DNA from: Hyphomicrobiaceae bacterium
Lineage (GTDB): Bacteria > Pseudomonadota > Alphaproteobacteria > Rhizobiales > Hyphomicrobiaceae
Assembly: GCA_021730785.1 (NCBI GenBank)
Contig: JAKFWF010000033.1
Span: forward strand, 1 to 64,000
Reading direction: 5' to 3'
Length of the DNA: 64,000 nt
In this document: positions 44,653 through 64,000 of the stretch, one piece after another
Numbering within the stretch: the first letter of the stretch is position 1
How the letters are laid out: each line of letters opens with the position of its first letter
Made by a program: the position numbers and the translations under genes
Notes under the pieces: model-generated
What the model was told of the DNA's origin: nothing
The model's database searches: none
The model's input: the letters and a program-made list of their open reading frames with translations, nothing else

Positions 44653-45741
44653 TCACCCGAGCTTCAAGCCGTCCGCCACTGCAGCTGCAATGGCGCCGTA
44701 AGCTGCGGCCTGCGGGCTGTCGGGCTCGGTGACGACGATCGGCAAGCCGCTGTCGGCGCGCTCGCGGATGGCAACGTCAAGCGGGACTTCGCCGAGAAAC
44801 GGCACGGCGAGCTTCGCCGCCTCCACCCGCGCGCCGCCATGGCCGAAAATGTGGTGGCGCTTGCCGCAGTCGTCGCACACGAAATAGCTCATGTTCTCGA
44901 CCAGCCCGAGAATGGGTACACCGACGGAACGGAACATGTCGACGCCGCGGCGGGCGTCGATCAGGGCGAGGTCCTGCGGCGTCGACACGATGATCGCACC
45001 GGACAGGGGAGCCGATTGGGCGAGCGTCAGTTGCGCGTCGCCGGTGCCGGGCGGCATGTCGACGATCAGGATGTCGAGCGCTCCCCAGGCGATGTCGCGC
45101 AGCATCTGGGTGAGTGCGGACGCGACCATCGGCCCGCGCCATACCAGCGCCTTATCGACGTCGACCACGAAGCCGATGGACATGACCTTGCAGCCGTAGG
45201 CATCGAGCGGGCTCAGCGTGCGCCCCTCGACGATGGTGGGACGGCCCTTGATGTTGAACAGCTTCGGCATCGACGGGCCGTAGATGTCGGCATCGAGAAC
45301 GCCGACGATGAGGCCGCGGGCACGCAACGCGAGCGCCAGGTTGCAGGCGGTGGTCGATTTGCCGACGCCGCCCTTGCCGGAGGCAACCGCGACAATGCGC
45401 TTGACCTGCCGCAGATTGGGAAAGCGTGGCGGCGGCGCCACCTCGGACGGTTTTGGGCGAGGCGTAGAGGTGGGCTTGGGCGGCGAGGGCGAAGCAGGTG
45501 AAGCTGCACGTTCGGAGGTCAACGACACGAGCGCGAGGGCGACGCCAGGTAGGCCGGCGAGCAACGCCTCAGTGCGTGCGCGCACGGATTCCCAGGCGCT
45601 CGCATTGCCCTCGGCAACAGTTAAAGAAACGAGCACCCGGTCGCCCTTGACGACGATCTCGGGCGCGACCGCGAGTGCCTCGCCAGCCGGACCGCGCAGG
45701 TTTGACAGGGCAGTGACAATCGCCTCGTGAGTGATCGCCAC
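44653..45741 (-). CDS. Mrp/ApbC-type iron-sulfur carrier ATPase
   Basis: A 362-residue P-loop protein of the Mrp/NBP35 family that carries or inserts [4Fe-4S] clusters. The N-terminal 80 residues correspond to a MIP18-like domain; the ATPase domain has the deviant Walker A motif VASGKGGVGKSTTACNLALAL, IVDMPPGTGDAQLTL, and the bridging CxxC in MSYFVCDDCGKRHHIFGHGG. The start is the GTG at 45741 (VAITHEAIVTALS); the ORF extends to 45936 without homology. It shares direction with the formate dehydrogenase operon upstream, so it may supply clusters to that enzyme. Confidence 0.9.
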   Translation of the reverse strand: MAITHEAIVTALSNLRGPAGEALAVAPEIVVKGDRVLVSLTVAEGNASAWESVRARTEALLAGLPGVALALVSLTSERAASPASPSPPKPTSTPRPKPSEVAPPPRFPNLRQVKRIVAVASGKGGVGKSTTACNLALALRARGLIVGVLDADIYGPSMPKLFNIKGRPTIVEGRTLSPLDAYGCKVMSIGFVVDVDKALVWRGPMVASALTQMLRDIAWGALDILIVDMPPGTGDAQLTLAQSAPLSGAIIVSTPQDLALIDARRGVDMFRSVGVPILGLVENMSYFVCDDCGKRHHIFGHGGARVEAAKLAVPFLGEVPLDVAIRERADSGLPIVVTEPDSPQAAAYGAIAAAVADGLKLG

Positions 45742-45823
45742 GGGACGCCTCACAAGCACGAACTCTGGTGTGAGCCGAACGTGGCCGCCACGCCAAATCG
45801 CAGTGGCCTGGATCGGTTCAATC

Positions 45824-45979
45824 TCAACTCTTGGGCGCATCCGAGTGGTGCGGGTCGATGCGCGCGCCGGTCGGACTCGTATAGGCGGTCTCGGACGAGC
45901 GCTGCAGTTTCTCCAGCACGATCGAGGCACCGACACTGATACCGATGACGGCCAGAACTGCGGCGAGGAAGGCTTTCAT
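45824..45979 (-). CDS. 51-residue single-pass membrane protein of the fdh locus
   Basis: The ORF track shows this as the tail of a longer ORF; the ATG at 45979 has a GGAGAGACGT ribosome-binding site. The protein is one N-terminal membrane helix (MKAFLAAVLAVIGISVGASIVLE), then a short polar tail ending SDAPKS. It lies 11 bases after the cytochrome subunit gene and 82 before the Mrp gene. Similar tiny helices accompany many respiratory complexes, so it may be an accessory subunit of the formate dehydrogenase. No function is known. Confidence 0.65.
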   Translation of the reverse strand: MKAFLAAVLAVIGISVGASIVLEKLQRSSETAYTSPTGARIDPHHSDAPKS

Positions 45980-45990
45980 GACGTCTCTCC

Positions 45991-47007
45991 TTATTCGCCG
46001 GGTGCAGGTGCATGCCCGCCGGAAATGTCCTTCGGGCGGCTCTTGGCGACCCTGTCGACCCACAGGCTGTGATGCTCACGCGCCCAGTTGAGATCGACGC
46101 GACCTTTGCCCATGGCGTCGAACGCACCCTCCATGCCGACCGAGCCGATGTAGATATGCGCAAAGATGATCGCGACCATGATCAACCCGACGAGGCCATG
46201 TATTACGGTGGCGAGTTGCAGGCCGCCGATGGCGATCTCGATTGGCTTGAACATCATCAGATAGCCCGATACGGCAAGTGCTGCCCCGCCGAGCACGGTC
46301 GACCAGAAGATGATCTTCTGCCCGCCGTTGAAGCGCTCCGCCGGCGGATGGCCAAGCCCGACCAGCCCGCCGCCCTGGGCGAACCAGCGCAGGTCGCGCA
46401 AACTGGGCACGTTGTCTTTCACCCACATCACGAACATCAAGATTATGCCGAGCGCGAAGGCGAAGCTCACGTAATTATGGACGAACTTACCGACCTGCGT
46501 GAGCCCGGTGAAGGCGTCGGGCCCGATGATGGGGAGTAACAGGGTTTTGCCGAACACCAGGTTGAGGCCGGTCAGGCCAAGCGCGATGAACGAGACTGCG
46601 GACAGCCAGTGGGCGAATCGCGACATACTGCCGAAGCGCAAAATCGTCTGACCTGACGGCCCGGTCGAAATCGCGATGCGACCGCGGATCAAATAGAACA
46701 GCGACAGTAGCAGCAGCATGCCGACGATGGCGTAGCCACCGACGGTTGGCAGCGTCTCTTGGCGGAATGTCCGGAACTCCTTGCCGGCCGGCTGGATCAG
46801 ATTGCCTGCGCGCGCATCGGGGATCGAGATGCGGCCCGACACGGTATCCGTCGAGCCGGGCTTGAGGGCGTCCAGCAGCTGCTTTTCCTTGACCGAGCTT
46901 GCCGTCGGGTTGACGGACGTCGGCTGTTGGGCGGCGGCCGGACCAGCCAACAGCGCGGCAAGCGCCAACAGCGGCAGCAGGTGTCTAAGCGAGGTGGTCA
47001 AGGTCAT
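45991..47007 (-). CDS. formate dehydrogenase cytochrome b556 (gamma) subunit
   Basis: A 338-residue membrane subunit that passes electrons from the iron-sulfur subunit to quinone. A signal-like segment is followed by four or more membrane helices. Haem-ligating histidines are evident in SMSRFAHWLSAVSFIALGLTG, GKFVHNYVSFAFALGIILMFV, and ATVIHGLVGLIMVAIIFAHIYIGSVG. The C-terminal GAFDAMGKGRVDLNWAREHHSLWVD is diagnostic of FdnI/FdoI-type proteins. The start is MTLTTSLRHLLPL. It is part of the fdh operon, 209 bases after the beta subunit, with a palindromic repeat between them. Confidence 0.92.
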   Translation of the reverse strand: MTLTTSLRHLLPLLALAALLAGPAAAQQPTSVNPTASSVKEKQLLDALKPGSTDTVSGRISIPDARAGNLIQPAGKEFRTFRQETLPTVGGYAIVGMLLLLSLFYLIRGRIAISTGPSGQTILRFGSMSRFAHWLSAVSFIALGLTGLNLVFGKTLLLPIIGPDAFTGLTQVGKFVHNYVSFAFALGIILMFVMWVKDNVPSLRDLRWFAQGGGLVGLGHPPAERFNGGQKIIFWSTVLGGAALAVSGYLMMFKPIEIAIGGLQLATVIHGLVGLIMVAIIFAHIYIGSVGMEGAFDAMGKGRVDLNWAREHHSLWVDRVAKSRPKDISGGHAPAPGE

Positions 47008-47045
47008 ATCTGTCTTTCCTGCAGTCAACGTGAAACTCGCATCAT

Positions 47046-47216: not shown

Positions 47217-47813
47217 CTAAGTCGCGATGTCTTCCTTGTAGGCCGTCTTCCAGCCCCAGGCACCGGAGCCATAGCCGCGCTTGGCGACCCGCTCCTTGTA
47301 GATCTGGGCGATGATCTCGCCGTCGCCGGCGAGCAGCGATTTGGTCGAGCACATCTCGGCGCACAGCGGCAGCTTGCCCTCGGCGAGGCGGTTGGCCCCG
47401 TAGGCCACGTACTCGGCCTTGGTGTTGTCGGCTTCCGGACCACCGGCGCAGTAGGTGCACTTGTCCATCTTGCCGCGGGAGCCGAAGTTGGCGGTCTTGG
47501 GGTACTGCGGCGCGCCGAACGGGCAGGCATAGAAGCAATAGCCGCAGCCGATGCACAGCTCCTTCGAGTGCAGCACCACCGCGTCGTCGGTCGTGTAGAA
47601 GCAGTCGACCGGGCACACCGCGGCACAAGGAGCGTCCGTGCAGTGCATGCAGGCCATGGATACCGAGCGCTCGCCCGGCTTGCCGTCGTTGATCGTCACC
47701 ACGCGGCGGCGGTTGATGCCCCACGGCACGTCGTTCTCGTTCTTGCAGGCGGTGACGCAGGCGTTGCATTCGATGCAGCGGTCGGCGTCGCAGAGGAACT
47801 TCATTCTAGCCAT
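47217..47813 (-). CDS. formate dehydrogenase iron-sulfur (beta) subunit
   Basis: A 198-residue ferredoxin-like protein that relays electrons from the catalytic subunit to the cytochrome. Four [4Fe-4S] motifs are visible: CIECNACVTACKNE, CMHCTDAPCAAVCP, CIGCGYCFYACPFG and, in the last part, CTYC.. with LCAEMCSTKSL. It is shorter than the E. coli FdnH protein and lacks the C-terminal membrane anchor, matching the Fdh3B type. It lies 90 bases after the catalytic subunit gene. Confidence 0.92.
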   Translation of the reverse strand: MARMKFLCDADRCIECNACVTACKNENDVPWGINRRRVVTINDGKPGERSVSMACMHCTDAPCAAVCPVDCFYTTDDAVVLHSKELCIGCGYCFYACPFGAPQYPKTANFGSRGKMDKCTYCAGGPEADNTKAEYVAYGANRLAEGKLPLCAEMCSTKSLLAGDGEIIAQIYKERVAKRGYGSGAWGWKTAYKEDIAT

Positions 47814-47903: not shown

Positions 47904-50897
47904 TCAAGCGGCGCGGATCTGACAGAGCGTCACTTTGCCCTCGTGCATCGCCGTGACCGGATCGAAGCCGTAGGTGGTGACGATGTTGACGCTCTCGCCG
48001 AGCACGATCGGGTCGGTGCCGGCGGGATAGTTCTTGCGCTGGTCTTCGCCCTGGTAGTGACCACCGAAGTGGAACGGCATCCAGGCAACACCGCGGCCGA
48101 CGCGTTCGGTAACGAGCGCCTTGACCTTCACCTTCGAGTTATTCTCAGGCCCGTCGACCCACACCCAGCCACCTTCGACGATGCCGCGGGATGCCGCATC
48201 CGCCGGATGGATCTCGACGAACATGTCCTGCTGCAGTTCGGCCAGCCACTTGTTGGAGCGGGTTTCCTCGCCGCCACCCTCGTATTCGACCAAACGGCCG
48301 GATGTCAGGATGATCGGGAAGCTCTTGGCCACGCCCTTGTCGACGGCCGCCTTCTGCACCGAGAAGCCCGCGTTCAAGACACGGAACGAGCGGAAGTCGG
48401 GCCGGGTCGGATACTTCGCCACGAGGTCGATGCGCGGCGAGTAGATCGGCTCACGATGGACCGGCACCGGATCGGGCAAATTCCAGGCATTGGCGCGGGC
48501 CTTGGAGTTGCCATAGGGTGCGCAGCCGTGGGCGATCGCCACGCGCTGGATGCCGCCCGACAGATCGATTGCCCAGGACACGGTGCCTGGCGTGTTGCCG
48601 CCGATCTTGGTGATGGTGGCGAGTTCGGCCTCCGTCAGGTCCTTGTCCCAGCCGAGCTTCTGCAGCACGGCATAGGTGAACTCTGGATAGCCGTCCTTGA
48701 TCTCTGAGCCGAGCGAGTACGAGCCCTCGGCCAGCATGTTCTGCTTGGTCTCGACCTCGGTCTCGACGCCGGCTGCGTCCTTTTGCTTGGTCTTGATGAC
48801 ACGCTCGGTGCCAAAGCGCGCACGGAACGTGCCGCCGCCGTCCTTGACGTGCAGGTTGGTGTTGTACAGCAGCGGCGAACCAGGATGCTTGTGGGCCGGC
48901 GTACCCCAGCACGGCCAGGGCAGACCATAGTGTTCGCCGGCAATTTCCGCAGGCGCATCGGCCTTCGCCTTCAGGGTCACGATGTCGAAGTGGTCCTGGT
49001 TCTTCATGTGCGTCTTGATGCGTTCAGGCGACTGGCCGCTGTAGCCAGTCGAGAAGCCGCCGCGATTGATCTCGCGCAACACCGATTCGGCTTCCGGCTC
49101 GTCGCCGAACTTGCCTTTCACCAACTTGATGTTCTTGAACATCTTGTCGGCGTAGCCAAGCCGCTTGGCGAGTTCATAGATCGCCCAGTAGTCGTTGGCG
49201 GATTCGAAGATCGGCTCGACGATCTTTTCGCCCCACTGGATCGAACGATTGGAGGCCGTGCGTGACCCCTCGCACTCCAGGCTGGTCGAGATCGGCAGCA
49301 GGTAGGTGCCGTTCTTGCGGCCGGCGAGCGACACGAAATTGGTCGGGTGCGGATCGGCGACCACGAGCAGCTCAAGGGCTGCGAGACCTTTCACCATCTC
49401 GGGCATGCGCGGCACGGTGTTGCCGCCGTGGCCGAAGATGATCGCAGCCTTCAGATTGTCGCGCTGGTCGATCTGGTCCTTCGGCACGGTGACGGCGTCG
49501 AACCAGCGGGTCGACGGGATGCCCGGCAAGGTGCGGAAGTTAATCTTGGTGTTGTTCGGCCCGTCCTTCTTGTCGAAGCGGCTGTCGAGCCATTCGAAGT
49601 CCACTTCCCAGACGCGTGCCCAGTGCTTCCAGGCGTTGTCGTCGAGGCCGTAGTAGAGCGGCAAGGTGATGACGTCGAGGCCAAGGTCGGTCGCGCCCTG
49701 CACGTTGGTGTGGCCGCGGAAGATGTTGGCGCCGGTGCCGGGCGCGCCGACGTTGCCGGTGGCGAGCAGCAAGATGCAGTAGGCGCGCACGTTGGCGGTG
49801 CCGACCGTGTGCTGGGTCGCGCCCATGCACCAGATCAGGGTCGAGGGCTTCTCCTTGGCAAACAACTCGGCGACGCGCTTCAATTGGGCGCCGGGAACAC
49901 CGGTGACGTCTTCAACCGTCTTGGGGTCCCACTTCTTTGCTTCGGCGCGGATCTCATCCATGCCGTTGACGCGTTGGGCAATGAAGTTCTTGTCCTCCCA
50001 GCCGTTCTCGAAGATGTGCCACAACAGGCCGTAGATCACCGGGATGTCGGTGCCCGAGCGGATGCGCACATACTCGGTCGCATGTGCGGCCGTGCGTGTC
50101 ATGCGCGGATCGATGACGATCAGGTTGGCGCGGTTGGTTTCCTTGCCGGTCAGCACGTGCTGCAGCGATACCGGATGCGCTTCGGCCGGATTGCCGCCCA
50201 TGATGATCATGGTCTTGGCATTGCGGATGTCGTTGTAGGAGTTGGTCTGCGCGCCGTAGCCCCAGGTGTTGGCGACGCCGGCAACCGTGGTCGAGTGGCA
50301 GATGCGGGCCTGATGGTCGACCGAGTTGGTACCCCAAAAGGCTGCCATCTTGCGATAGAGGTAGGCGCCCTCGTTGGTGAATTTGGCCGAGCCCAGCCAC
50401 CACACCGACTCGGGTCCCGACTTCTCGCGGATCTCCAGCATCTTGGTCGAAATTTCATCCAACGCCTGCTTCCAGGACACCCTCTGGTACTGGCCGTCGA
50501 CGAGCTTCAGCGGGTACTTTAAGCGGCGGTCGCCGAACACGATCTCGCGGATCGCGGCGCCCTTGGCACAGTGCGTGCCGCGGTTGATCGGGCTGTCGTA
50601 GGACGGCTCCTGGCCAACCCACACGCCGTTCTGCACTTCCGCCGTCACCGTGCAGCCGACGGAGCAGTGCGTACAAATGTTCTTCTTGATGTCGAACGGC
50701 TTGGCGAAATCCATGGGTGTGACGGCCTGTGCCGGCTGCACCGTGGCAGCGCCAAGCGTACCGACGGCGGCAAGGCCGGTTGCTGTTATGCCGGCATTGC
50801 GCAGGAAGGCACGGCGGTCGAGCGGGGCTGCACCAGATACAGTCATGGGTGCCGGGCGCGAGCGGCGGGTGGTCTTATCGAGGCGTTTGGTCAGCAT
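47904..50897 (-). CDS. formate dehydrogenase catalytic (alpha) subunit, cysteine type
   Basis: A 997-residue molybdenum or tungsten bis-MGD enzyme that oxidises formate to CO2. A Tat signal is visible (LDRRAFLRNAGITATGLAAVG), so it is exported folded. An ATG at 50846 (MTVSGAAPLDRRAF) is a shorter alternative start. A [4Fe-4S] site reads CTHCSVGC (Cys75-78-82) with GTHCAKG (Cys110). The active-site residue is Cys200 in DHQARICHSTTVAG, where E. coli FDH-N has selenocysteine. The C-terminal molybdopterin-binding domain starts near FPIILTSGRLVEYEGGGEETR. It belongs to the Fdh3A group. fdhD and cofactor synthesis genes are not in the window. Confidence 0.94.
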   Translation of the reverse strand: MLTKRLDKTTRRSRPAPMTVSGAAPLDRRAFLRNAGITATGLAAVGTLGAATVQPAQAVTPMDFAKPFDIKKNICTHCSVGCTVTAEVQNGVWVGQEPSYDSPINRGTHCAKGAAIREIVFGDRRLKYPLKLVDGQYQRVSWKQALDEISTKMLEIREKSGPESVWWLGSAKFTNEGAYLYRKMAAFWGTNSVDHQARICHSTTVAGVANTWGYGAQTNSYNDIRNAKTMIIMGGNPAEAHPVSLQHVLTGKETNRANLIVIDPRMTRTAAHATEYVRIRSGTDIPVIYGLLWHIFENGWEDKNFIAQRVNGMDEIRAEAKKWDPKTVEDVTGVPGAQLKRVAELFAKEKPSTLIWCMGATQHTVGTANVRAYCILLLATGNVGAPGTGANIFRGHTNVQGATDLGLDVITLPLYYGLDDNAWKHWARVWEVDFEWLDSRFDKKDGPNNTKINFRTLPGIPSTRWFDAVTVPKDQIDQRDNLKAAIIFGHGGNTVPRMPEMVKGLAALELLVVADPHPTNFVSLAGRKNGTYLLPISTSLECEGSRTASNRSIQWGEKIVEPIFESANDYWAIYELAKRLGYADKMFKNIKLVKGKFGDEPEAESVLREINRGGFSTGYSGQSPERIKTHMKNQDHFDIVTLKAKADAPAEIAGEHYGLPWPCWGTPAHKHPGSPLLYNTNLHVKDGGGTFRARFGTERVIKTKQKDAAGVETEVETKQNMLAEGSYSLGSEIKDGYPEFTYAVLQKLGWDKDLTEAELATITKIGGNTPGTVSWAIDLSGGIQRVAIAHGCAPYGNSKARANAWNLPDPVPVHREPIYSPRIDLVAKYPTRPDFRSFRVLNAGFSVQKAAVDKGVAKSFPIILTSGRLVEYEGGGEETRSNKWLAELQQDMFVEIHPADAASRGIVEGGWVWVDGPENNSKVKVKALVTERVGRGVAWMPFHFGGHYQGEDQRKNYPAGTDPIVLGESVNIVTTYGFDPVTAMHEGKVTLCQIRAA

Positions 50898-50948: not shown

Positions 50949-51158
50949 TCACAGGTAGCGGTTGGTGGCGTAGAATTTCTTGACGTGTGCGCTCTCGCGA
51001 TAGCGGGCTTTTTTCTTGTCAGTGGTGCTTTCGGCGGCCAGCGCCGGGCTCGTCGTGGTGACGCCGGCTGCGACCGTGGCAGCACCTGCTGCCCCCGTGC
51101 CGATGCCTTTGAGGAAGCCGCGGCGGTCGAGGGTGGTGTCGGTCTTGGACTTGGCCAT
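50949..51158 (-). CDS. formate dehydrogenase region Tat-target small protein
   Basis: A 69-residue protein: a twin-arginine signal (TLDRRGFLKGIGTGAAGAATVAAG) and a short mature tail, KKKARYRESAHVKKFYATNRYL. This matches the family described as formate dehydrogenase region TAT target, found beside FDH catalytic subunit genes. Role unknown; it may chaperone or be a tiny subunit. It is 51 bases upstream of the catalytic subunit gene and 17 bases after the TorD-like gene. The start at 51158 removes the poorly supported extension to 51179. Confidence 0.85.
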   Translation of the reverse strand: MAKSKTDTTLDRRGFLKGIGTGAAGAATVAAGVTTTSPALAAESTTDKKKARYRESAHVKKFYATNRYL

Positions 51159-51175: not shown

Positions 51176-51955
51176 TCAAGCAGCGATTGCAAGGGCGCGG
51201 GTTTCGATATCGATCCAGTGCCGGCCGACATCGGCAACGGCACGGTAGAACTTGGCGGACGGGGCAACGGCAATGTCAGCAAACAGTCGCGGTACCCAGG
51301 TCTCGATGTGGGCGGCAAAGAACGCGTCCTGGGCGGTGATCGGCACTCGATAGGTGCCATCGATCATGCCGGCCATCGCGTCAAACAGGGTGGCGATGTT
51401 GTCTTCGGGTTCATGCAATCCGGCGCGACGCTCGATGCCGAAGCGTTCCAGATCCTGGCGGACGGCGGCCAATGGCCGCTCGTGCAGGAAGCCCGCGAGG
51501 TAGAACGAGGCATAGGGCAGCACCTCGCCGCGACCGACGCCGACGAACAGCTTGAAGAACTCTTCACCCGCCCGCGCCTCGGTCGTGGCGCGGGCCGCAT
51601 CGGCCAGCGCGATCCAGGCGAAACCAAGTGCCGAGGCATCGCCGGTGACCTTGGCGACCTGATCGAGCAGCGCCTGCTTCGGTGGCCTGGCCAGCAGGTT
51701 CGCCAGCAGCAGGTAGCCCCTCGCGCGCGCCAGATCGATGTCGTCGAGTTCGACTGCCGGCGCCTTCGGATCATTGAACAGGTCTGGACGCAGGATGTTT
51801 CGCGACACGCCGGTCGCCGCTTCGATGGCCGTGACGCGATCGGCTGGCACGCGCTTCCAGCCGGAAACGGAGGGCTGGGCAATTTCGAGCGCACGGGCCA
51901 GGGCGCCGATACCGCCCGCCGCATCTATCGCTCGCTGTAAGCCTTGATCGCGCAT
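51176..51955 (-). CDS. HTH (YdaS/Cro-like)-TorD fusion chaperone
   Basis: A 259-residue protein with two parts. Residues 1-60 form a Cro/YdaS-like helix-turn-helix: LQRAIDAAGGIGALARALEIAQPSVSGWKRVPADRVTAIEAATGVSRNILRPDLF. Residues 75-255 are a TorD/DmsD-like redox-enzyme maturation chaperone: YLLLANLLARPPKQALLDQVAKV, FFKLFVGVGRGEVLPYASFYLAGFLHERPLAAVR, HEPEDNIATLFDAMAGM. TorD proteins bind the Tat signal of molybdoenzymes until cofactor is loaded. The DNA-binding fusion suggests a chaperone that also reports enzyme maturation to its promoter. The adjacent Tat substrates are the FDH alpha subunit and the small Tat protein. Confidence 0.85.
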   Translation of the reverse strand: MRDQGLQRAIDAAGGIGALARALEIAQPSVSGWKRVPADRVTAIEAATGVSRNILRPDLFNDPKAPAVELDDIDLARARGYLLLANLLARPPKQALLDQVAKVTGDASALGFAWIALADAARATTEARAGEEFFKLFVGVGRGEVLPYASFYLAGFLHERPLAAVRQDLERFGIERRAGLHEPEDNIATLFDAMAGMIDGTYRVPITAQDAFFAAHIETWVPRLFADIAVAPSAKFYRAVADVGRHWIDIETRALAIAA

Positions 51956-52162: not shown

Positions 52163-52819
52163 CTACGTGGGCAACGCCCCGCCGTGACGACGGCGCGTGG
52201 GCTGTTTGGCGAGTTTGGTGTCACGCTGCGAAGCATCTGAAATTTGAGCATTTTCCACTGGCTCCGTGGCGGGCGCTGGTGCATCAGCCGGGACTGGCAC
52301 AGCCAACGCGACTTGCGGGCCGCTGGGGTCACCGGCCGCCGCATGGGTCGTTTCAATCTGTTGCGGTGCAGCATCCTGATCGGATGCGCTGACGGTCGCG
52401 GCGTCCGCAGTGGTGGTTTTTTCTACGAGCACCGTCTGCGTCGCCTGCGCCATCCACACGCTGATGTCGGTGCCCTCGGCCAGATCCTGGAACAACCCGG
52501 GAATACCGCCCGGCGCGTTGAAATCCCACTGGTTCTCGGCCACCTCGACGAAGTCGCGGATCGCCGGGTCGAGCGCCCACATGCGGCGCAGCGCCAGCTT
52601 CTGCAACGCTTCCGGCACGCCCTTGCGCAGAAAGCCGGTGATGTCGCTGTCCACGGTCAGATCTTCGATCCTGGGCAGTTTGGTGAGGTCGACCTCGGGT
52701 TCGGGTTCTGGCGCGGCGGCTTCCGGCGGCGGCATGGGCGCGGTCTTTGGCCGTGCGGCGTCCTGTTTTTGGCGGGCCCAGCGGGTGAGAAACGATTCGT
52801 CCGGCCGGTCATTGCTCAT
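52163..52819 (-). CDS. DUF3306-domain protein
   Basis: A 218-residue protein. The central DUF3306 block LPRIEDLTVDSDITGFLRKGVPEALQKLALRRMWALDPAIRDFVEVAENQWDFNAPGGIPGF-type is clear (GIPGLFQ here). An N-terminal DESFLTRWARQKQDA, a P/A/E-rich linker and a disordered A/T/P-rich C terminus flank it. The family occurs next to formate dehydrogenases in proteobacteria but its role is unknown. The start overlaps the DUF3305 stop by four bases. A gap of 207 bases separates it from the TorD-like gene. Confidence 0.88.
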   Translation of the reverse strand: MSNDRPDESFLTRWARQKQDAARPKTAPMPPPEAAAPEPEPEVDLTKLPRIEDLTVDSDITGFLRKGVPEALQKLALRRMWALDPAIRDFVEVAENQWDFNAPGGIPGLFQDLAEGTDISVWMAQATQTVLVEKTTTADAATVSASDQDAAPQQIETTHAAAGDPSGPQVALAVPVPADAPAPATEPVENAQISDASQRDTKLAKQPTRRRHGGALPT

Positions 52820-53319
52820 GACGGCTCCTCGCCGGTCGATCCATCGCGCCAGCGCACGTCGTGCGGACGGTTATCACGCTTGCGCTTGATGATCGGCCGC
52901 TCGACGTGATGGCCGGCGATGAAGGCCGCGACCACGCCCGCGATTTCCACCGGCATATCAACGGTTTCGACGATGTTGTTGCCGGCTTCGGTCGCACCTT
53001 CCCCTTCGGCCGGGTCGGCGGTGACGAGCGCCACGTGAATGGGCGGCGCATCGCCCTCGGCACGCATCACGACCCACAGTTTCGGCGTGCCACTCGCCAG
53101 ATTGTCGCGATAGTTGGCGGTGTCGGTAGAATACAGGCTGATTGGGAATTCACCCGCGTAGAAGCGCGTGGCATCCGCGTTGCCACCGAGCGGGGTCCAG
53201 GGCGCGACCTCGGGTGCGGCGGGAAAAATCGTCACCGGCCGCCACGCGACGCCGCCCCACGCGCCGCTCAAGCGGCGGCGTTCGACGACGAGACCGACCG
53301 TGATCTGCTCTTCGATCAT
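52816..53319 (-). CDS. DUF3305-domain protein
   Basis: A 167-residue soluble protein: ITVGLVVERRRLSGAWGGVAWRPVTIFP, FYAGEFPISLYSTDTANYRDNLASGTPKLWVVMR and MPVEIAGVVAAFIAGHHVERPIIKRKRDNRP. These are the DUF3305 signature segments. The gene overlaps its neighbours by four bases on both sides, indicating translational coupling and stoichiometric production. DUF3305-DUF3306 pairs associate with fdh loci; no biochemical function is known to me. Confidence 0.88.
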   Translation of the reverse strand: MIEEQITVGLVVERRRLSGAWGGVAWRPVTIFPAAPEVAPWTPLGGNADATRFYAGEFPISLYSTDTANYRDNLASGTPKLWVVMRAEGDAPPIHVALVTADPAEGEGATEAGNNIVETVDMPVEIAGVVAAFIAGHHVERPIIKRKRDNRPHDVRWRDGSTGEEPS

Positions 53320-54338
53320 GCGCGCTTCTCGGCAATGGGGAGTCCGGTGACGAGGTTCTGCGGCTTGACGCGGATGATGCGGTTCGTGGTCATGCCGAGG
53401 ATGAGATAGGTCGGGTGCCCCTTGACGCGATCGAGCATATCGCCCGCATCATCGAACGTCAGGCTGAACAGCGCGACGATGCGCTCACGCCCCTGCTCGG
53501 GCGGCTCATCGCCGGCCCACAGTGCGTTGCCGATGCGCGTGCCCTCCTGGTCGAGACCGGCAAACCACTGCCAATCGGCGCGCTCCAGCCGCTCGATCGC
53601 CTCGACCTTGACGGCGAGGCCATGCATGTGCCGCACCCACCGCTCGATCACCTCGGCGAAGGCGGTCCGGGCGCGCTGGCCGAACCGGAAGTCCATGACC
53701 ATGTGATGAGCGTCGCTGTGATCGAAGTAGTGATCGGCGTTGTCGGCCGTCATCACATCGAGGTTGCGCGCCTTGGCATCGCCGAACACGGCGACCAGGG
53801 GCGATGAATGATCGGTGACGTTGGTGCCGTCGACCAGTTCCTCGTCGGCCAGTAGCATGATGCCGTCCTTGATGGTCAGTCGCTGGGGCCGGAACAGGAG
53901 TTCGGCCGCCCGCAAGATCAAGGGATCAGCCTCGCCATCGAGCATGTTGCGGGCGATCACATGCACCAGTTGGGCGAGGAACAGCGGCGGGACCGCTACT
54001 TTCGGCGCCCGCACCAGCTTCAGATAGGCAGCTTCAAGGGTCGGCGCCGCCAGCAGCGCATCGCGGAAGGACACGAGGAACTGCCAGTTCTCGCGCGCGT
54101 CACGATCGGCGATGTCGCGGATCTCGGCCGGCACAACCGCCGCACGGGGCGTGCGCGCGAGCTTCTGGTACACGGCGCGCTCGACGATGCAGGCGTCGTC
54201 CGGCGGCATGACCTCGGGGCGGGCGAGGTAGACCTTCAGGAACTCGTCAGTGACGATGAGGCGGCCGTGCTCGTCATGGTCGAGCAGATGGTGGCCGCTG
54301 GACAGCCAGAAATCGCGCACATGTTCGTCGTCGCTCAT
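53316..54338 (-). CDS. DUF6352-like protein of the fdh locus
   Basis: A 340-residue cytoplasmic protein: MSDDEHVRDFWLSSGHHLLDHDEHGRLIVTDEFLKVYLARPEVMPPDDACIVER at the N terminus, followed by a helical body (YQKLARTPRAAVVPAEIRDIADRDARENWQFLVSFRDALLAA) and a VIERWVRHMHGL-type C terminus. I recall this family as DUF6352. It contains no cysteine motif or nucleotide-binding motif. The start at 54338 overlaps the DUF6505-like stop (ATGA). Function unknown; the position within five overlapping genes implies a joint role. Confidence 0.72.
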   Translation of the reverse strand: MSDDEHVRDFWLSSGHHLLDHDEHGRLIVTDEFLKVYLARPEVMPPDDACIVERAVYQKLARTPRAAVVPAEIRDIADRDARENWQFLVSFRDALLAAPTLEAAYLKLVRAPKVAVPPLFLAQLVHVIARNMLDGEADPLILRAAELLFRPQRLTIKDGIMLLADEELVDGTNVTDHSSPLVAVFGDAKARNLDVMTADNADHYFDHSDAHHMVMDFRFGQRARTAFAEVIERWVRHMHGLAVKVEAIERLERADWQWFAGLDQEGTRIGNALWAGDEPPEQGRERIVALFSLTFDDAGDMLDRVKGHPTYLILGMTTNRIIRVKPQNLVTGLPIAEKRA

Positions 54339-54907
54339 GGTTTTGCCGCCCGCGCCGCCGCGGTGAGATCGAACGTATCGTCGGCGGTCTCCGCGGCGGC
54401 GTCGTCTTCGACCAGGGCGAAGGCGCCGGCACTGCACGGCATGGCGGTCGCCTGTTTGGCGTCGGCCGCGTGAAACGTGCGGAACTGCTCGGAAATGCTG
54501 CCATCGGCGGTCAGCGTGCGGTGGACGGCGACCAGCGTCTGCACCGGATGCTGGGCGAGGCTCTCGGCAAAGGCGATCTCGTCCGCGGCGGCGGCCTGGG
54601 CGGCAGTGAGATCGGGCGCATCGTGGGCATCGAACAGGTGGCGGGCCAGGGCCAACATCGCGTCATGGCGCTCATCGGGTGTCGCCTCGACCACCACCGC
54701 CAACGTCGACCAGCCGAATGTCGAGAGGCCGAGAAAGCCCGAGCGGAACGCTTGTTTCGGCCGCCCGTGCAAGATTGCCGGGTTGTCGTCCCAGAACTTG
54801 AACGTGCCGGTTACCGCCCATTCGCCGGCCGCGGCTGCGCGCTCGAACACGAAGGTGTCCGAGGCATCGAGGCGGAGGGTGCGCAGCAGTTTCGTCGTCA
54901 CAGCCAT
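54335..54907 (-). CDS. DUF6505-like protein of the fdh locus
   Basis: A 190-residue soluble protein: LLRTLRLDASDTFVFERAAAAGEWAVTGTFKFWDDNPAILHGRPKQAFRSGFLGLSTFGWSTLAVVVEA, then a helical segment (ERHDAMLALARHLFDAHDAPDLTAAQAAAADEIAFAESLA). I recall this as DUF6505. The gene overlaps the ligase-like gene by ten bases and the DUF6352-like gene by four. No catalytic residues can be named. Confidence 0.7.
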   Translation of the reverse strand: MAVTTKLLRTLRLDASDTFVFERAAAAGEWAVTGTFKFWDDNPAILHGRPKQAFRSGFLGLSTFGWSTLAVVVEATPDERHDAMLALARHLFDAHDAPDLTAAQAAAADEIAFAESLAQHPVQTLVAVHRTLTADGSISEQFRTFHAADAKQATAMPCSAGAFALVEDDAAAETADDTFDLTAAARAAKP

Positions 54908-55638
54908 GGGTCACCGGTGGCGGGGTCCAGCCATTGGGGCGTCGCCAGTGCCGCCGTCAAGGGCCGCCGCGCGGTATCCTTGTGGCCGGGCAGTTGTCGC
55001 TCGATCAGATCGCCGTTTTTGTCGATGCGGTGGCGGATGCCGGCCGTTTTCTGCAGGCGCGCGACGTAGCGATCGGCAACGCTGGTGAAGCCCTTGGCGT
55101 TCCAGCCGTCGAAGGCTGCCATCAAATGCCGCGCGAAGCCCTCGATGATGCGGTTGCCGTCCATCATCTCGAAGCCCTCGCTCGCGAGGCTGGTGCCGCG
55201 TTTGAAGCTCGTGTCGGCGGTCATTTCGACGATGCTGCGCACATGCACACCGAGCACGAGCCAGTCGGGCGCCTCTGTCTCAATCGAACCGGGTGCCACC
55301 GCCAACCGGCAGCCGCCGATGATGCCGCCGTCGAGTATGATCGTATCGGGCCAGCCGAACACCAGCGGCTTTTCCGGCGGGCAATGCAGGGCGAGCGCGT
55401 CGGCCGCCGCATTCATGCCGGCGTACAGCGCACCGCGCGCTTCCGCGAGCGGTTGCTCAGGCTCGAGCACCACGGCCGCCTCGATGCCGTCGAACCGGCA
55501 AACCCACACCAGCGTGCCAGCGCCACTGTCCGCTGCGATCGCCTGTGCGTGGCCAAACGCATCGCGGAATTCGCGCAGGGGCACGGCCTGGAAGCCTGGC
55601 GGCAGATCGAGGGCGTGGGGGGCTGCGTGCATACTCAT
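54898..55638 (-). CDS. biotin/lipoate ligase-like protein with DUF4444 tail
   Basis: A protein of 246 residues with a BPL/LplA/LipB-like fold: LDLPPGFQAVPLREFRDAFGHAQAIAADSGAGTLVWVCRFDGIEAAVVLEPEQPL, MNAAADALALHCPPEKPLVFGWPDTIILDGGIIGGCRLAVAPG, IVEMTADTSFKRGTSL. The C-terminal part (RIIEGFARHLMAAFDGWNAKGFTSVADRYVARL..) is a DUF4444-type tail. It lacks the GRGRxG motif of true biotin ligases, so it may bind rather than transfer a cofactor. ATGs at 55638 and 55632 are both possible. It is the first gene of the overlapping accessory set and is divergent from the ferredoxin gene. Confidence 0.75.
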   Translation of the reverse strand: MSMHAAPHALDLPPGFQAVPLREFRDAFGHAQAIAADSGAGTLVWVCRFDGIEAAVVLEPEQPLAEARGALYAGMNAAADALALHCPPEKPLVFGWPDTIILDGGIIGGCRLAVAPGSIETEAPDWLVLGVHVRSIVEMTADTSFKRGTSLASEGFEMMDGNRIIEGFARHLMAAFDGWNAKGFTSVADRYVARLQKTAGIRHRIDKNGDLIERQLPGHKDTARRPLTAALATPQWLDPATGDPWL

Positions 55639-55685
55639 CTTGCACATTTCTATATTGTGGCCGACACAGCGGCAACACTCCTCAC

Positions 55686-57782
55686 ATGAAGTCGCCAATG
55701 GCCACACCGAAATCCGACCCCACGCGAACGATCCTGCTGTGCTCCTGCGAGGGCACCATGCCCCTCGATGCCAAAGGCGTGGCCAAGGGCAGTGGCAACG
55801 TCAAAGTGGTCACCGCGACGCATCTGTGCGGGCCGGAGCTCGATAAGTTCCGTGCGGCCGCAGCGAAAGGCAACGTGACCGTCGCCTGCACCGCCCAGCG
55901 CGCACTGTTCGAGGATGTGGCCGAGGACGACGCGCTGCCAGCCGCCCTCACGTTCGCCAACGTCCGCGAGACTGCCGGCTGGTCGAGCGAAGCGGCCCAA
56001 GCCGCACCGAAGATGGCCGCTCTTCTTGCCATGGCGGCGGTTGCCCAACCGGCGCCGACCGCGGTGACGTTCGAGAGTGCCGGTGTCACGTTGATCTACG
56101 GGCCGGGGCAGGTAGCGCTCGATGCGGCAGCCGCGCTGAAGGATCGCCTCGACCTAACCGTTGTGATGTCGGACGCCGGCAGCGGCACGCCGCCGGCAGT
56201 CAACGAATTCCCGGTTCTGCGCGGCCGCATCAAGTCCGTGCAAGGCCACCTCGGCGCCTTTGCGATCACCATCGACTCGCTCGCGGTCGCCGCCCCCTCG
56301 TCACGGCGCACATTCACGTTCGGCCCGGCACGCAATGGCGCGGTCTCGAAGGCCGACATCCTGATCGACCTGTCCGGCAGCCCAGCCCTCGTCACCGCAC
56401 CCGAGCTACGTGCCGGCTACCTGCGCGCCGATCCGACCGACGCGGCGGCGGTCGCCAAGCTGCTGTTAAAGGCGGCCGACCTCATTGGAACGTTCGACAA
56501 ACCGCGCACAATCGACTTCAAGGCCGAATTGTGCGCCCACGCGCGGTCAAAGAAGGTCGGCTGCACGCGCTGCCTCGATCTGTGCCCGGCCGGCGCCATT
56601 GCACCCAACGGCAACGCCGTTGCGATCGACCCGCACATCTGCGCCGGCTGCGGACAGTGTGCTGCGGCGTGCCCGACCGGGGCCGCAAGCTATGCCGTGC
56701 CTGCCGTCGACGTCCTGCTGCAACAGATCCGTGCCGGCGCCCAGGCCTATTTCGATGCCGGCGGTGGCAGCGGTGTCGCGCCGATCCTGCTGCTACACGA
56801 TGCGGCGCACGGTGCCGCCCTGGTCGATGCCGGCGCGCGTTTCGGCGACGGCCTGCCGGCCCACGTGATCCCCGTGTTGCTCAACGAAGTGACCCAGGTC
56901 GGCCTGGAGACGATTGCTGCCAGCGTGGCCTATGGTTTCCGCGCCGTGCGCCTGCTGACCCGCGCCCGTCCGCGCCACGACATCGCCGGCCTGCGTGCCA
57001 CCGTTGAAACCGCGACCCGCATCCTCTCGGGCCTCGGCTACGGCACGGATGCCGTCGGCATCATCGAGACCGACGATCCGGATGCACTGGGCGAAAGTTT
57101 GCGGATGCCGCGGCCGCCGGTCGCGCCGTTGGCACGGGCGACATTCCTGCCGCTCGGCGCGAAGCGCGATCTCATGAAGCTTGGGCTGCGCGAGCTGCAT
57201 CGCATGGCGCCAGCACCTCAGGCTCGCATCGAACTGGCCAAGGGCGCAGCTTTCGGCGGTCTTGCGATCGACACGGCGAAGTGCACGTTGTGCCTCGCCT
57301 GCGTGTCGGCCTGCCCGGTGAGCGCGCTCGGTGACGCGGCCGACCAGCCTCTCCTGTCGTTCGACGAAAGCCTATGCGTGCAGTGCGGGTTGTGCGTTGC
57401 GACTTGCCCCGAGACGGTGATCAAGCTCGCGCCCCGCATCGATTTCGCAGCGTTCGACGCCGGCCGGGTGACCATCAAGCAGGAAGCACCGTTCCACTGC
57501 ATCAGCTGCGGCAAGGCGTTCGGCGTCAAGTCGACGATCGACCGCGTGACGGCGAAACTGAAAGACAAGCACTGGATGTTCACCGGCGAGAACAGCGCGC
57601 GGCTCGAGCTGATCCAGAAATGCGACGACTGCCGCGTCGAAGCGATGACCAACGCCAAGTTCGATCCCTATGCCGCCAAACCCCGCCCGCCGGCCAAGAC
57701 GACGGAAGACTATCTGAAGGAACGCGAACTGGCCGAGCGCGAAGCCGCCATGAAGGCCAGGATCGACAAAGGCGAAGTGTGA
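55686..57782 (+). CDS. 698-residue multi-cluster ferredoxin-like protein of the fdh locus
   Basis: A large cytoplasmic iron-sulfur protein. An N-terminal region with CSCEG and further single cysteines (residues about 20-70) leads into a domain of unknown fold. A first ferredoxin unit follows (about 290-330: GCTRCLDLCPAG and CAGCGQCAAACPTG). A second central region ends in another ferredoxin unit (about 530-575: CTLCLACVSACP and CVQCGLCVATCP), and a final pair of CxxC motifs (HCISCGKAFG, KCDDCR) suits a metal knuckle. In all, four [4Fe-4S] motifs are visible. It is divergent from the ligase-like gene with a 47-base gap. It probably carries electrons or sulfur for formate dehydrogenase maturation or use. 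Confidence 0.82.
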   Translation: MKSPMATPKSDPTRTILLCSCEGTMPLDAKGVAKGSGNVKVVTATHLCGPELDKFRAAAAKGNVTVACTAQRALFEDVAEDDALPAALTFANVRETAGWSSEAAQAAPKMAALLAMAAVAQPAPTAVTFESAGVTLIYGPGQVALDAAAALKDRLDLTVVMSDAGSGTPPAVNEFPVLRGRIKSVQGHLGAFAITIDSLAVAAPSSRRTFTFGPARNGAVSKADILIDLSGSPALVTAPELRAGYLRADPTDAAAVAKLLLKAADLIGTFDKPRTIDFKAELCAHARSKKVGCTRCLDLCPAGAIAPNGNAVAIDPHICAGCGQCAAACPTGAASYAVPAVDVLLQQIRAGAQAYFDAGGGSGVAPILLLHDAAHGAALVDAGARFGDGLPAHVIPVLLNEVTQVGLETIAASVAYGFRAVRLLTRARPRHDIAGLRATVETATRILSGLGYGTDAVGIIETDDPDALGESLRMPRPPVAPLARATFLPLGAKRDLMKLGLRELHRMAPAPQARIELAKGAAFGGLAIDTAKCTLCLACVSACPVSALGDAADQPLLSFDESLCVQCGLCVATCPETVIKLAPRIDFAAFDAGRVTIKQEAPFHCISCGKAFGVKSTIDRVTAKLKDKHWMFTGENSARLELIQKCDDCRVEAMTNAKFDPYAAKPRPPAKTTEDYLKERELAEREAAMKARIDKGEV

Positions 57783-61852: not shown

Positions 61853-62974
61853 CTAGCCGGTCGGCTCGTCATGGCGCTCCCGGGCATAGCGAACGAGCGC
61901 CAGGAAGCGGTAGATGCCGTGCACGAACTTGCCGTAGGGCAGCGACAGGAACAGCGCGAACACGACGCCGAGGTGGATCGCCAGCAGCAGTCCCATGGCC
62001 GGCGTTGAGCGCAGGACCAGCAGCAGCAGGCCAGTGATGCTCGTCAGGAACAGCATGACGAGGAACGCCGCATCCATGCCGGCCCGCGGCTCATCGCGCA
62101 TCTGCGGATCGCGCCGCCACTTGGCCGCCAGCAAGCCGACCGGACCGACCAGCAGCCCAATGCCGCCAAGGGTGCCGAGGACGACCGGCAAGTCGTACCA
62201 CGGATAGGGCGCCTCGAGCCCGCGCAGGTAGTGATAGAGCGTTGCCGTCGAAGTCGAGGCGAAGCACAACAGGAAGCCGTAGAACGTCAGGTGATGATAG
62301 AAGCGCCGGCTGTCGGTTGGGCGCTCATCTTCGTTGTAACAGCCAACGCCGCCGCCATCGAGATAGCGCAGCGAGCCGGCATCGCGCACCGCCGACAGCA
62401 GCGGCTTGGGTTGGCTGAGCGTCGCGGCCGGCTCGCCGATGTCGCGCCAGAAGGCACGTGCGCCCATCGCCAGGGCCAGGAGGGCGTATAAGAACACGGC
62501 GCCGAACAGCAACGCCATCGTGTTGTGCGGCATGAGCTTGTAGAAGGAGCCAGGTCCGGTGTGGGCCGCAAACAGTACGCGCGCGTCGTTCCAACCGATG
62601 AAGCCTGTGACAAACGCGGTAACGGCCAGTGCTGCAAGCACGCTGATCGCGAGCCCATTGCGGTCGAAGACGGGGCGCAATGCGGCCGGCCAGGCGTAGG
62701 CGCGATAGGACTGAGCCCGAACCTCAGCCAAGGTCTGAGGCACGTTGACGTTGAACTCGTGCGGCGGCGAGAACTGGCAGTCGACATAGCAGGCGCCGCA
62801 GCCGTGACACAGGTTGGCGAGGTAGTTCAGATCGCCGTCGCCGAACGAACGCCTGAGCTCCATGGCCGGAAACACCGCGCACAGCCCCTCGCAATAGCGG
62901 CACGAGTTGCACACCGTCATCAGTCGGTCGGCTTCGGCGAGCGCCGCCGTGGCGTGGCTTTCACTTTGCGACAT
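61853..62974 (-). CDS. TcuB-like 4Fe-4S membrane protein
   Basis: A 373-residue protein. Two N-terminal ferredoxin motifs, CNSCRYCEGLCAVFPAM and CHGCGACYVDCQFSPPHE, precede a cytochrome b-like membrane region of about six helices (LAISVLAALAVTAFVTGFIGW, MALLFGAVFLYALLALAMG, LTFYGFLLCFASTSTATLYHY). TcuB transfers electrons from the FAD enzyme TcuA to the membrane in tricarballylate oxidation. The start at 62974 overlaps the TcuA-like gene by 14 bases. Confidence 0.88.
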   Translation of the reverse strand: MSQSESHATAALAEADRLMTVCNSCRYCEGLCAVFPAMELRRSFGDGDLNYLANLCHGCGACYVDCQFSPPHEFNVNVPQTLAEVRAQSYRAYAWPAALRPVFDRNGLAISVLAALAVTAFVTGFIGWNDARVLFAAHTGPGSFYKLMPHNTMALLFGAVFLYALLALAMGARAFWRDIGEPAATLSQPKPLLSAVRDAGSLRYLDGGGVGCYNEDERPTDSRRFYHHLTFYGFLLCFASTSTATLYHYLRGLEAPYPWYDLPVVLGTLGGIGLLVGPVGLLAAKWRRDPQMRDEPRAGMDAAFLVMLFLTSITGLLLLVLRSTPAMGLLLAIHLGVVFALFLSLPYGKFVHGIYRFLALVRYARERHDEPTG

Positions 62975-64000
62975 GTGCCGCTGCTCCCTGGCCGGCGATG
63001 CGGCCGAACACACTGCCAATCGTCATGCCGATGCCGGCTGCATAGCCGCGCCCGAGCACATTGCCGGCCATGATCTCGCCAGCGGCAAACATGTTTGCCG
63101 ATGGCCCGCCGTCGCGCAGCATCATGCGTGCACTGCGGTCAACGCGGGTGCCGAGGTAGGTGAACGTGATGCCCGGACGCACGGGATAGCCATAGAAGGG
63201 TGCTTTTTCGATTCTGCGTGCCCAGTGTGTTTTCGGCGGCGTCAAGCCATCGGTGCGGCAATCGTCGAGCGTGGTGTGATCGAAGCTGCCGGGCCGCACC
63301 GCCGCGTTGAAATCGGCAACCGTCTTCTCCAGCACGGCCGCATCCAGACCGAACTTGGCCGCAAGCTCGGCAAGCGAACCGGCGGCAATGGCCGGATATA
63401 GCGACGGCATGAAGAGTTCAAGCGAGGACGCATCGAAGATGATGTAGGCGATCTGGTCGGGTTGGGCTGCCACCAGCCGGCCCCAGATGGCGTAGCGCTT
63501 GGGCCAGACCTCTTCGCCCTCGTCGTAGAAGCGTTGCGCCTGCTTGTTGACGACGATACCGAACACCACGCAGTCGAGCCGGGTGATGATGCCGCCATCG
63601 AACTTCGGCGCGCGGGCATCGATCGCCACCGCATGGCATTGGGTGGCATCGCCGACCGGCTGGACGCCGCGCTCCAGCAGCATTTTCAAGACGGTGCCGC
63701 GGTTATAGGGCGTGCCGCGAATGAGGAAGTTGTCGGCAGCCGGCCCCCAAGATTCCTTCAGCCACTCGATGTTGGCCTCGAAGCCGCCGGATGCTGCCAC
63801 CAGCGTGCGACCCTTGATCGTGATGCGGCCGTCGCCTCGTTTGATCGTCGCCGAGCGGAATTCGCCGCGCGTGATGTCGAGGTCGACGACTTCGGCATCA
63901 TACAGCACTTCGACGCCGAGTTTCTCGGCCGTCAGATACAGCGCGTTCAGCATGGCGCGTCCGCCGCCGAGGAAAAACGAGTTGGTGCGCCCCAGCGACA
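62961..64000 (-). CDS. TcuA-like FAD-dependent dehydrogenase, 5' end beyond the window
   Basis: The C-terminal 340 or so residues of a flavoprotein of the fumarate reductase/tricarballylate dehydrogenase family. The frame stays open to the right edge (SLGRTNSFFLGGGRAM at the edge). Motifs: LVAASGGFEANIEWLKESWGP, GGIITRLDCVVFGIVVNKQAQRFYDEGEEVWPKRYAIWG, and ANMFAAGEIMAGNVLGRGYAAGIGMTIGSVFGRIAG, the FAD-binding C-terminal signature. It is coupled to the TcuB-like gene. The true substrate may be an aromatic-pathway tricarboxylate such as oxalomesaconate, given the neighbours, but that is inference. Confidence 0.85.
   Translation of the reverse strand, partial: SLGRTNSFFLGGGRAMLNALYLTAEKLGVEVLYDAEVVDLDITRGEFRSATIKRGDGRITIKGRTLVAASGGFEANIEWLKESWGPAADNFLIRGTPYNRGTVLKMLLERGVQPVGDATQCHAVAIDARAPKFDGGIITRLDCVVFGIVVNKQAQRFYDEGEEVWPKRYAIWGRLVAAQPDQIAYIIFDASSLELFMPSLYPAIAAGSLAELAAKFGLDAAVLEKTVADFNAAVRPGSFDHTTLDDCRTDGLTPPKTHWARRIEKAPFYGYPVRPGITFTYLGTRVDRSARMMLRDGGPSANMFAAGEIMAGNVLGRGYAAGIGMTIGSVFGRIAGQGAAAHVAK

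Follow-up and report, generated by a model that had tools for sequence, protein, structure and literature searches.

HdrA is counted among the ancient bifurcators that work with flavin. In its type Ia fusions with MvhD (HdrA2 of methanogens), an N-terminal iron-sulfur domain is followed by a Rossmann/thioredoxin-reductase core, a C-terminal ferredoxin and then MvhD, and a classification of archaeal HdrA groups the types by their thioredoxin-reductase domains (PMC12054007). HycF of E. coli formate hydrogenlyase has a Cys4 site with a single metal ion, tentatively assigned as iron, facing an acidic patch on FdhF; the redox state of this site has been proposed to tune FdhF binding (PMC9474812). 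Another protein, FdhE, has been described as systematically associated with periplasmic formate dehydrogenases (FDHs) (PMC10609526). A survey of TorD-fdh operons noted fer4, DUF3305 and DUF3306 genes within them and reported fdhD/fdhE in trans in the genomes concerned (PMC4464133). In V. cholerae, the 'iron-sulfur cluster-binding protein' VC1516 shares its regulation with the FDH chaperone VC1515, its function being given as unknown by the authors (PMC5816637), and fdh3 of Methylobacterium has been described as periplasmic (PMC12180729).

The window studied here, meaning the whole stretch of 64,000 nucleotides, has, on its minus strand, a complete formate dehydrogenase locus of the FDH3 type, and divergent from its biotin/lipoate-ligase-like gene lies the gene for a 698-residue protein (Table 1), at which neither a promoter nor a terminator signal stood out. 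The same gene order is annotated on Sinorhizobium and Bradyrhizobium plasmids and is rearranged in Sagittula; homologues at all three loci are named merely '4Fe-4S binding protein', the generic name under which the family already stands in databases. Full-length homology, 20-24 conserved cysteines and neighbouring DUF3306, DUF3305, TorD and FDH3 genes identify the protein as a member of a widespread, uncharacterised family of FDH3-locus 4Fe-4S proteins in Pseudomonadota. VC1516 and the fer4 genes of TorD-fdh operons belong to the same type of locus and are likened to this family by locus and annotation. Single-sequence scans against Pfam, NCBIfam and PHROGs returned generic ferredoxin matches alone, a pattern scan of contigs for the ferredoxin parts returned archaeal loci only, and a viral fold library gave no match.

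Table 1 Features of the formate dehydrogenase locus and of the 698-residue protein, in window coordinates
Feature	Coordinates	Strand	Remarks
Mrp/NBP35 iron-sulfur carrier ATPase	44653..45936	-	Adjoins FDH genes
FDH gamma subunit, cytochrome b561-type	45991..47028	-	
FDH iron-sulfur subunit Fdh3B	47217..47813	-	
FDH catalytic subunit FdhA	47904..50897	-	Tat signal RRAFLR
Small FDH-associated Tat-signal protein	50949..51158	-	RRGFLKG; syntenic 70-codon gene in relatives
TorD/NarJ-type chaperone	51176..51955	-	N-terminal Cro/YdaS-type HTH
DUF3306 protein	52163..52819	-	
DUF3305 protein	52816..53319	-	
DUF6352 protein	53316..54437	-	Profile match from residue 42; true start may be internal
DUF6505 protein	54335..54907	-	
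Biotin/lipoate-ligase-like protein	54898..55707	-	Longest ORF; true start probably further in
Gene under study, 698 aa + stop: flavin-free HdrA-MvhD-HycF-like iron-sulfur protein	55686..57782	+	Open from ATG to TGA
HdrA N-terminal iron-sulfur domain, residues 12-120	55719..56045	+	C19, C21, C48, C68; F-x-NIRE-x3-W; PDB profile match to HdrA alone, E 1e-4
Shrunken thioredoxin-reductase-like (former FAD) domain, residues 121-275	56046..56510	+	First G of GxGxxG and G-x-x-G-x-F kept
Ferredoxin unit 1 (HdrA C-terminal ferredoxin), residues 276-337	56511..56696	+	
MvhD/FlpD-like domain without cysteine, residues 338-480	56697..57125	+	Foldseek 5odh_D; hhalign
Ferredoxin unit 2, HycF-like, residues 521-588	57246..57449	+	
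HycF-like Cys4 single-metal site (predicted), residues 589-660	57450..57665	+	C605, C608, C646, C649; invariant R650

All 24 cysteines of the protein occupy ligand positions. Four lie in the N-terminal domain, eight in each ferredoxin unit (C283, 293, 296, 300 / 319, 322, 325, 329 in unit 1; C533, 536, 539, 543 / 564, 567, 570, 574 in unit 2) and four in the trailing pairs C605/C608 and C646/C649, and unit 2 begins 204 residues after unit 1. The first motif reads C-x9-C-x2-C-x3-C against the classical CxxCxxCxxxC, and, compared with the HdrA ferredoxin, unit 1 has a loop of seven residues. Homologues were collected from relatives, Pseudomonadota-wide genomes and plasmids, and 52 of them were aligned. 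Nineteen of the 20 cysteines in the ferredoxin units and C-terminus, both trailing pairs included, are kept in 52/52 homologues and the twentieth, C322, in 50/52; the four N-terminal ones are kept in 50/50 of those retaining that domain. Cysteine conservation in the family is thereby confirmed to lie far above chance. A preliminary description of this gene, made from its letters alone, had seen two 2[4Fe-4S] units some 200 residues apart, two trailing CxxC motifs and a cysteine-bearing N-terminal domain, and each of these is confirmed. The predicted content is up to five [4Fe-4S] clusters and one metal ion. Two shorter homologues (L048 and L051, ~545-575 aa) have no N-terminal HdrA-like domain and have one unit 1 ligand, C322, replaced (CHGAGSC), which suggests a modified cluster; not every cluster is therefore required.

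An AlphaFold model of the protein (mean pLDDT 92.5, pTM 0.86) was searched with Foldseek, and the best seven matches were all HdrA chains, with E-values from 6e-12 to 1e-8. A profile of residues 10-275 compared with all PDB sequences likewise gave HdrA as its sole match at E<0.5 (E 1e-4); the match takes in the N-terminal domain, the G-x-x-G-x-F motif and the first part of the Rossmann core. Using hhalign, residues 12-463 were collinear with residues 8-756 (of 793) of an archaeal HdrA-MvhD fusion at a probability of 98.6 and E 5e-16, and the reversed template control returned nothing. A profile search of the middle region against the PDB found nothing credible, and its MvhD nature is known from structure and hhalign: residues 338-480 adopt the MvhD/FlpD fold (PF02662) at a similarity below Pfam detection, with Foldseek matches at 1.9-3.4 Å rmsd and a TMt of about 0.7 overall, the match to 5odh_D superposing at 1.9 Å over 114 columns (TMt 0.71) with a high probability and a weak E-value of 0.05-0.16.

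After HdrA, Foldseek ranked HycF of E. coli formate hydrogenlyase (E 8e-7, TMt 0.63-0.72). Residues 520-655 match HycF, and hhalign aligned the C-terminal end with it at 98.4% through the four C-terminal cysteines; the hhalign scores of the MvhD and HycF C-terminal regions lay above those of 100/100 column shuffles. As in HycF/HyfH, a 2[4Fe-4S] ferredoxin is followed by CxxC...CxxC, a predicted metal site, whereas the N-terminal membrane-associated extension is missing and the region forms part of a soluble fusion. The spacing within the Cys4 site is C-x37-C against C-x34-C in HycF, Arg122 of HycF is replaced by Lys or Thr in most family members, and an invariant Arg follows the last cysteine. 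The protein scores 50.6 on the NCBIfam HycF profile, against a cut-off of 204, and neither the window nor the annotated relatives have the hyc/hyf-type neighbours of a HycF that serves as a complex-I-like membrane hydrogenase subunit. When the C-terminal profile was compared with the PDB, many zinc fingers were returned, but these are tandem 'EKPYxCxxCGKxF' repeats in which the first CxxC alone was matched, and they were rejected.

We therefore regard the protein, with high confidence, as an HdrA-MvhD-HycF mosaic in both architecture and ancestry. The earlier label of a large ferredoxin undersells the protein, and the suggested structural comparison with HdrA was well chosen. NfnB and Rnf proteins, proposed alongside it, compare much more weakly in Foldseek (NfnB/NfnI at E 0.02-0.04, RnfB over 45 columns only); beyond a single ferredoxin motif there was no fold or sequence match, and membership of these families was discarded. 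That the whole layout is known from no characterised protein also stands, and no report of the HdrA-MvhD-HycF composition of the family was found in the literature searched.

The order of domains up to MvhD is that of the type Ia fusions, and the N-domain cysteines with the NIRE motif, as well as the pairing of a four-cysteine N-terminal iron-sulfur domain with a C-terminal 2[4Fe-4S] ferredoxin, are those of HdrA. However, the protein differs from HdrA-MvhD in its HycF-like extension and in having neither the dinucleotide motif nor the MvhD cluster ligands. The flavin domain has shrunk from ~430 aa in HdrA to ~150 aa, and in the hhalign alignment ~280 aa of the HdrA FAD domain have no counterpart. 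Among the homologues the first G of GxGxxG is present in 52/52 and the second in 17/52, while the third position is A in 48/52. An FAD-binding thioredoxin-reductase domain as in HdrA was looked for and not found in the protein, which for this reason is not filed as HdrA; and since the published types are defined through their thioredoxin-reductase domains (PMC12054007), a form that lacks the flavin and ends in a HycF part falls outside them. Residues 330-532 are free of any cysteine, and because the MvhD domain thus has none, the [2Fe-2S] cluster of MvhD/FlpD has been lost with its ligands. Given the shrinkage of the FAD domain and the loss of this cluster, flavin-based bifurcation is not possible in the known way. 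No HdrB or HdrC partner subunits were seen in the annotated neighbourhoods of Sinorhizobium, Bradyrhizobium and Sagittula.

The ferredoxin inserted in HdrA is also gone from the branch to which the protein belongs. Four relatives (L047, L049, L050 and L052), which form one clade with a support of 0.99 in an unrooted tree, keep an inserted ferredoxin at the HdrA-homologous place (probability 99.2), and the model of this group is closer to HdrA (Foldseek E 6e-16). A gain of the insert in this clade was considered and set aside, as its position and the collinearity with HdrA favour retention in the unrooted tree. It looks as if HdrA was reduced stepwise in the lineage of the 698-residue protein, as far as a tree without a root may suggest.

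Genome co-occurrence was assessed across 299 sampled Pseudomonadota genomes. The family is present in 42 of these and DUF3306 in 41, all among those 42; every DUF3306 genome thus has the gene (41/41), and the two lie <5 kb apart in 40/41. The single carrier without DUF3306 (G276) has a divergent match with an internal stop. The association with formate dehydrogenase proposed in the preliminary description is hence real, DUF3306, a marker of the FDH cluster, being present in 41/42 carriers. FdhE was found neither in the protein's own genome nor in 40/42 carrier genomes, and the sample does not bear out the in-trans fdhE of the published survey (PMC4464133). An anticorrelation between FdhE and the family was not significant (Fisher p = 0.20). 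FdhD is present in the own genome as a single gene (C1:151710-152408) on a different contig from the FDH locus. The protein resembles FdhE in its predicted cytosolic location, in CxxC pairs of the kind that hold single metal ions and in its coupling to periplasmic FDH (PMC10609526), yet it matches neither the FdhE profile (PF04216) nor the FdhE fold.

The topology of the enzyme constrains where the protein could act. FdhA has a Tat motif in 4/4 loci examined, and FdhC combines a signal peptide with the transmembrane segments of a cytochrome b. The 698-residue protein lacks membrane segments and any recognisable export signal of the Tat or Sec type, as is generally the case for its homologues. 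Because FdhA is exported and the protein has no signal, the two most likely meet before export only. We infer that this flavin-free relative of HdrA stays in the cytosol and there helps FDH to mature, or proofreads it, ahead of export, and give this reading a probability of about 0.5. It would act on periplasm-bound FDH while the enzyme is still in the cytoplasm and awaits Tat transport, the MvhD domain of the protein serving as a cofactor-less scaffold. By analogy with HycF on FdhF, the Cys4 site may dock on nascent FdhA; we propose this because the HycF Cys4 ion adjoins the FdhF interface. The cluster chain could then exchange electrons with freshly loaded FdhA(B) during cofactor loading or proofreading, and the TorD chaperone would release redox-competent FDH alone for export. 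Together with TorD, DUF3305 and DUF3306, the protein may serve where E. coli uses FdhE, and it would in that sense replace FdhE. A more specific form of this proposal, in which an electron-bifurcating HdrA-MvhD unit of archaeal type, stripped of its flavin and given a HycF-type FDH-docking end, became a dedicated redox maturase or proofreader that tests FDH before export independently of FdhE, is put forward tentatively, as possible rather than probable.

The same conserved cluster ligands could instead serve steady-state electron transfer, with cytosolic FdhAB, or the protein alone, passing formate electrons to a soluble acceptor such as a ferredoxin or an NAD system, in the way that HdrA/MvhD serve the formate dehydrogenase of methanogens. 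HdrA and MvhD occur in the Methanospirillum FDH-Hdr complex (7bkb and 7bkd, among the structural matches), and HycF sits beside the FDH module in formate hydrogenlyase. An electron hub linking FDH to a soluble partner had been suggested earlier, and its link to FDH survives; its topology does not agree with a signal-bearing FdhA and FdhC and a signal-less protein, the FAD site and the MvhD [2Fe-2S] cluster are lost, and the annotated clusters of Sinorhizobium, Bradyrhizobium and Sagittula share no conserved gene for a soluble acceptor. We consider it unlikely, although a hub that works on nascent FDH before it leaves the cytoplasm is conceivable.

Storage and transfer of [4Fe-4S] clusters rather than electrons, to FdhA/FdhB and together with Mrp/NBP35, would suit the requirement of FdhA and FdhB for about five clusters and the Mrp/NBP35 gene that adjoins the FDH genes in the window and in Sagittula. 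That gene does not adjoin the locus in Sinorhizobium or Bradyrhizobium, however, and eight-cysteine ferredoxin folds normally bind their clusters tightly, which makes a donor role rather less probable still. FdhB is signal-less too and is presumed to hitch-hike on FdhA, and some relatives have c-type cytochrome/WD40 genes close to the locus, so the protein might be carried into the periplasm with FdhA as an extra subunit that transfers electrons to cytochromes there; but its size (about 70 kDa), the cytosolic location of HdrA/HycF-like domains elsewhere and the position of its gene in the accessory half of the locus, divergent from the FDH genes in alphaproteobacteria, make this very improbable. 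The least credible reading has the protein sense redox state and control the gene cluster, together with the HTH-TorD chaperone, instead of acting on the enzyme. It appeals to the cysteine-rich sequence and to the DNA-binding domain fused to TorD in the window, but the protein has no output domain and is conserved in Sinorhizobium and Sagittula, where TorD is without the HTH.

A widespread bacterial branch that has lost the flavin and kept its cluster ligands shows that the HdrA scaffold can be put to a different use. FdhE plays no part in making many periplasmic formate dehydrogenases, a gap in the account of these molybdoenzymes for which the protein, with DUF3305 and DUF3306, is a concrete candidate replacement. 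The comparison with HycF further leads us to predict that the Cys4 metal site of formate hydrogenlyase, so far unexplained, serves in FDH docking and that two unrelated systems share this element. The family could potentially help in expressing FDH3-type enzymes for CO2/formate conversion.

Other genes in and around these loci are of separate interest. The HTH of the TorD homologue at 51176-51955 matches PF15943 (8e-14) and PF14549 (3e-7), and the fusion is also found in Bradyrhizobium (L054) and is absent from TorD of Sinorhizobium and Sagittula; such a chaperone could double as a transcriptional regulator. A WD40 beta-propeller gene follows the 4Fe-4S gene in two relatives (L053:14033-15328 and L054:14051-15340) and is annotated as a c-type cytochrome in Bradyrhizobium. 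Elsewhere in the window, a TcuB-like tricarballylate utilisation 4Fe-4S membrane protein is encoded at 61853-63019 on the minus strand (TIGR02484, above cut-off), and beside it lies a flavoprotein-like ORF (62961-63953) that is perhaps TcuA.
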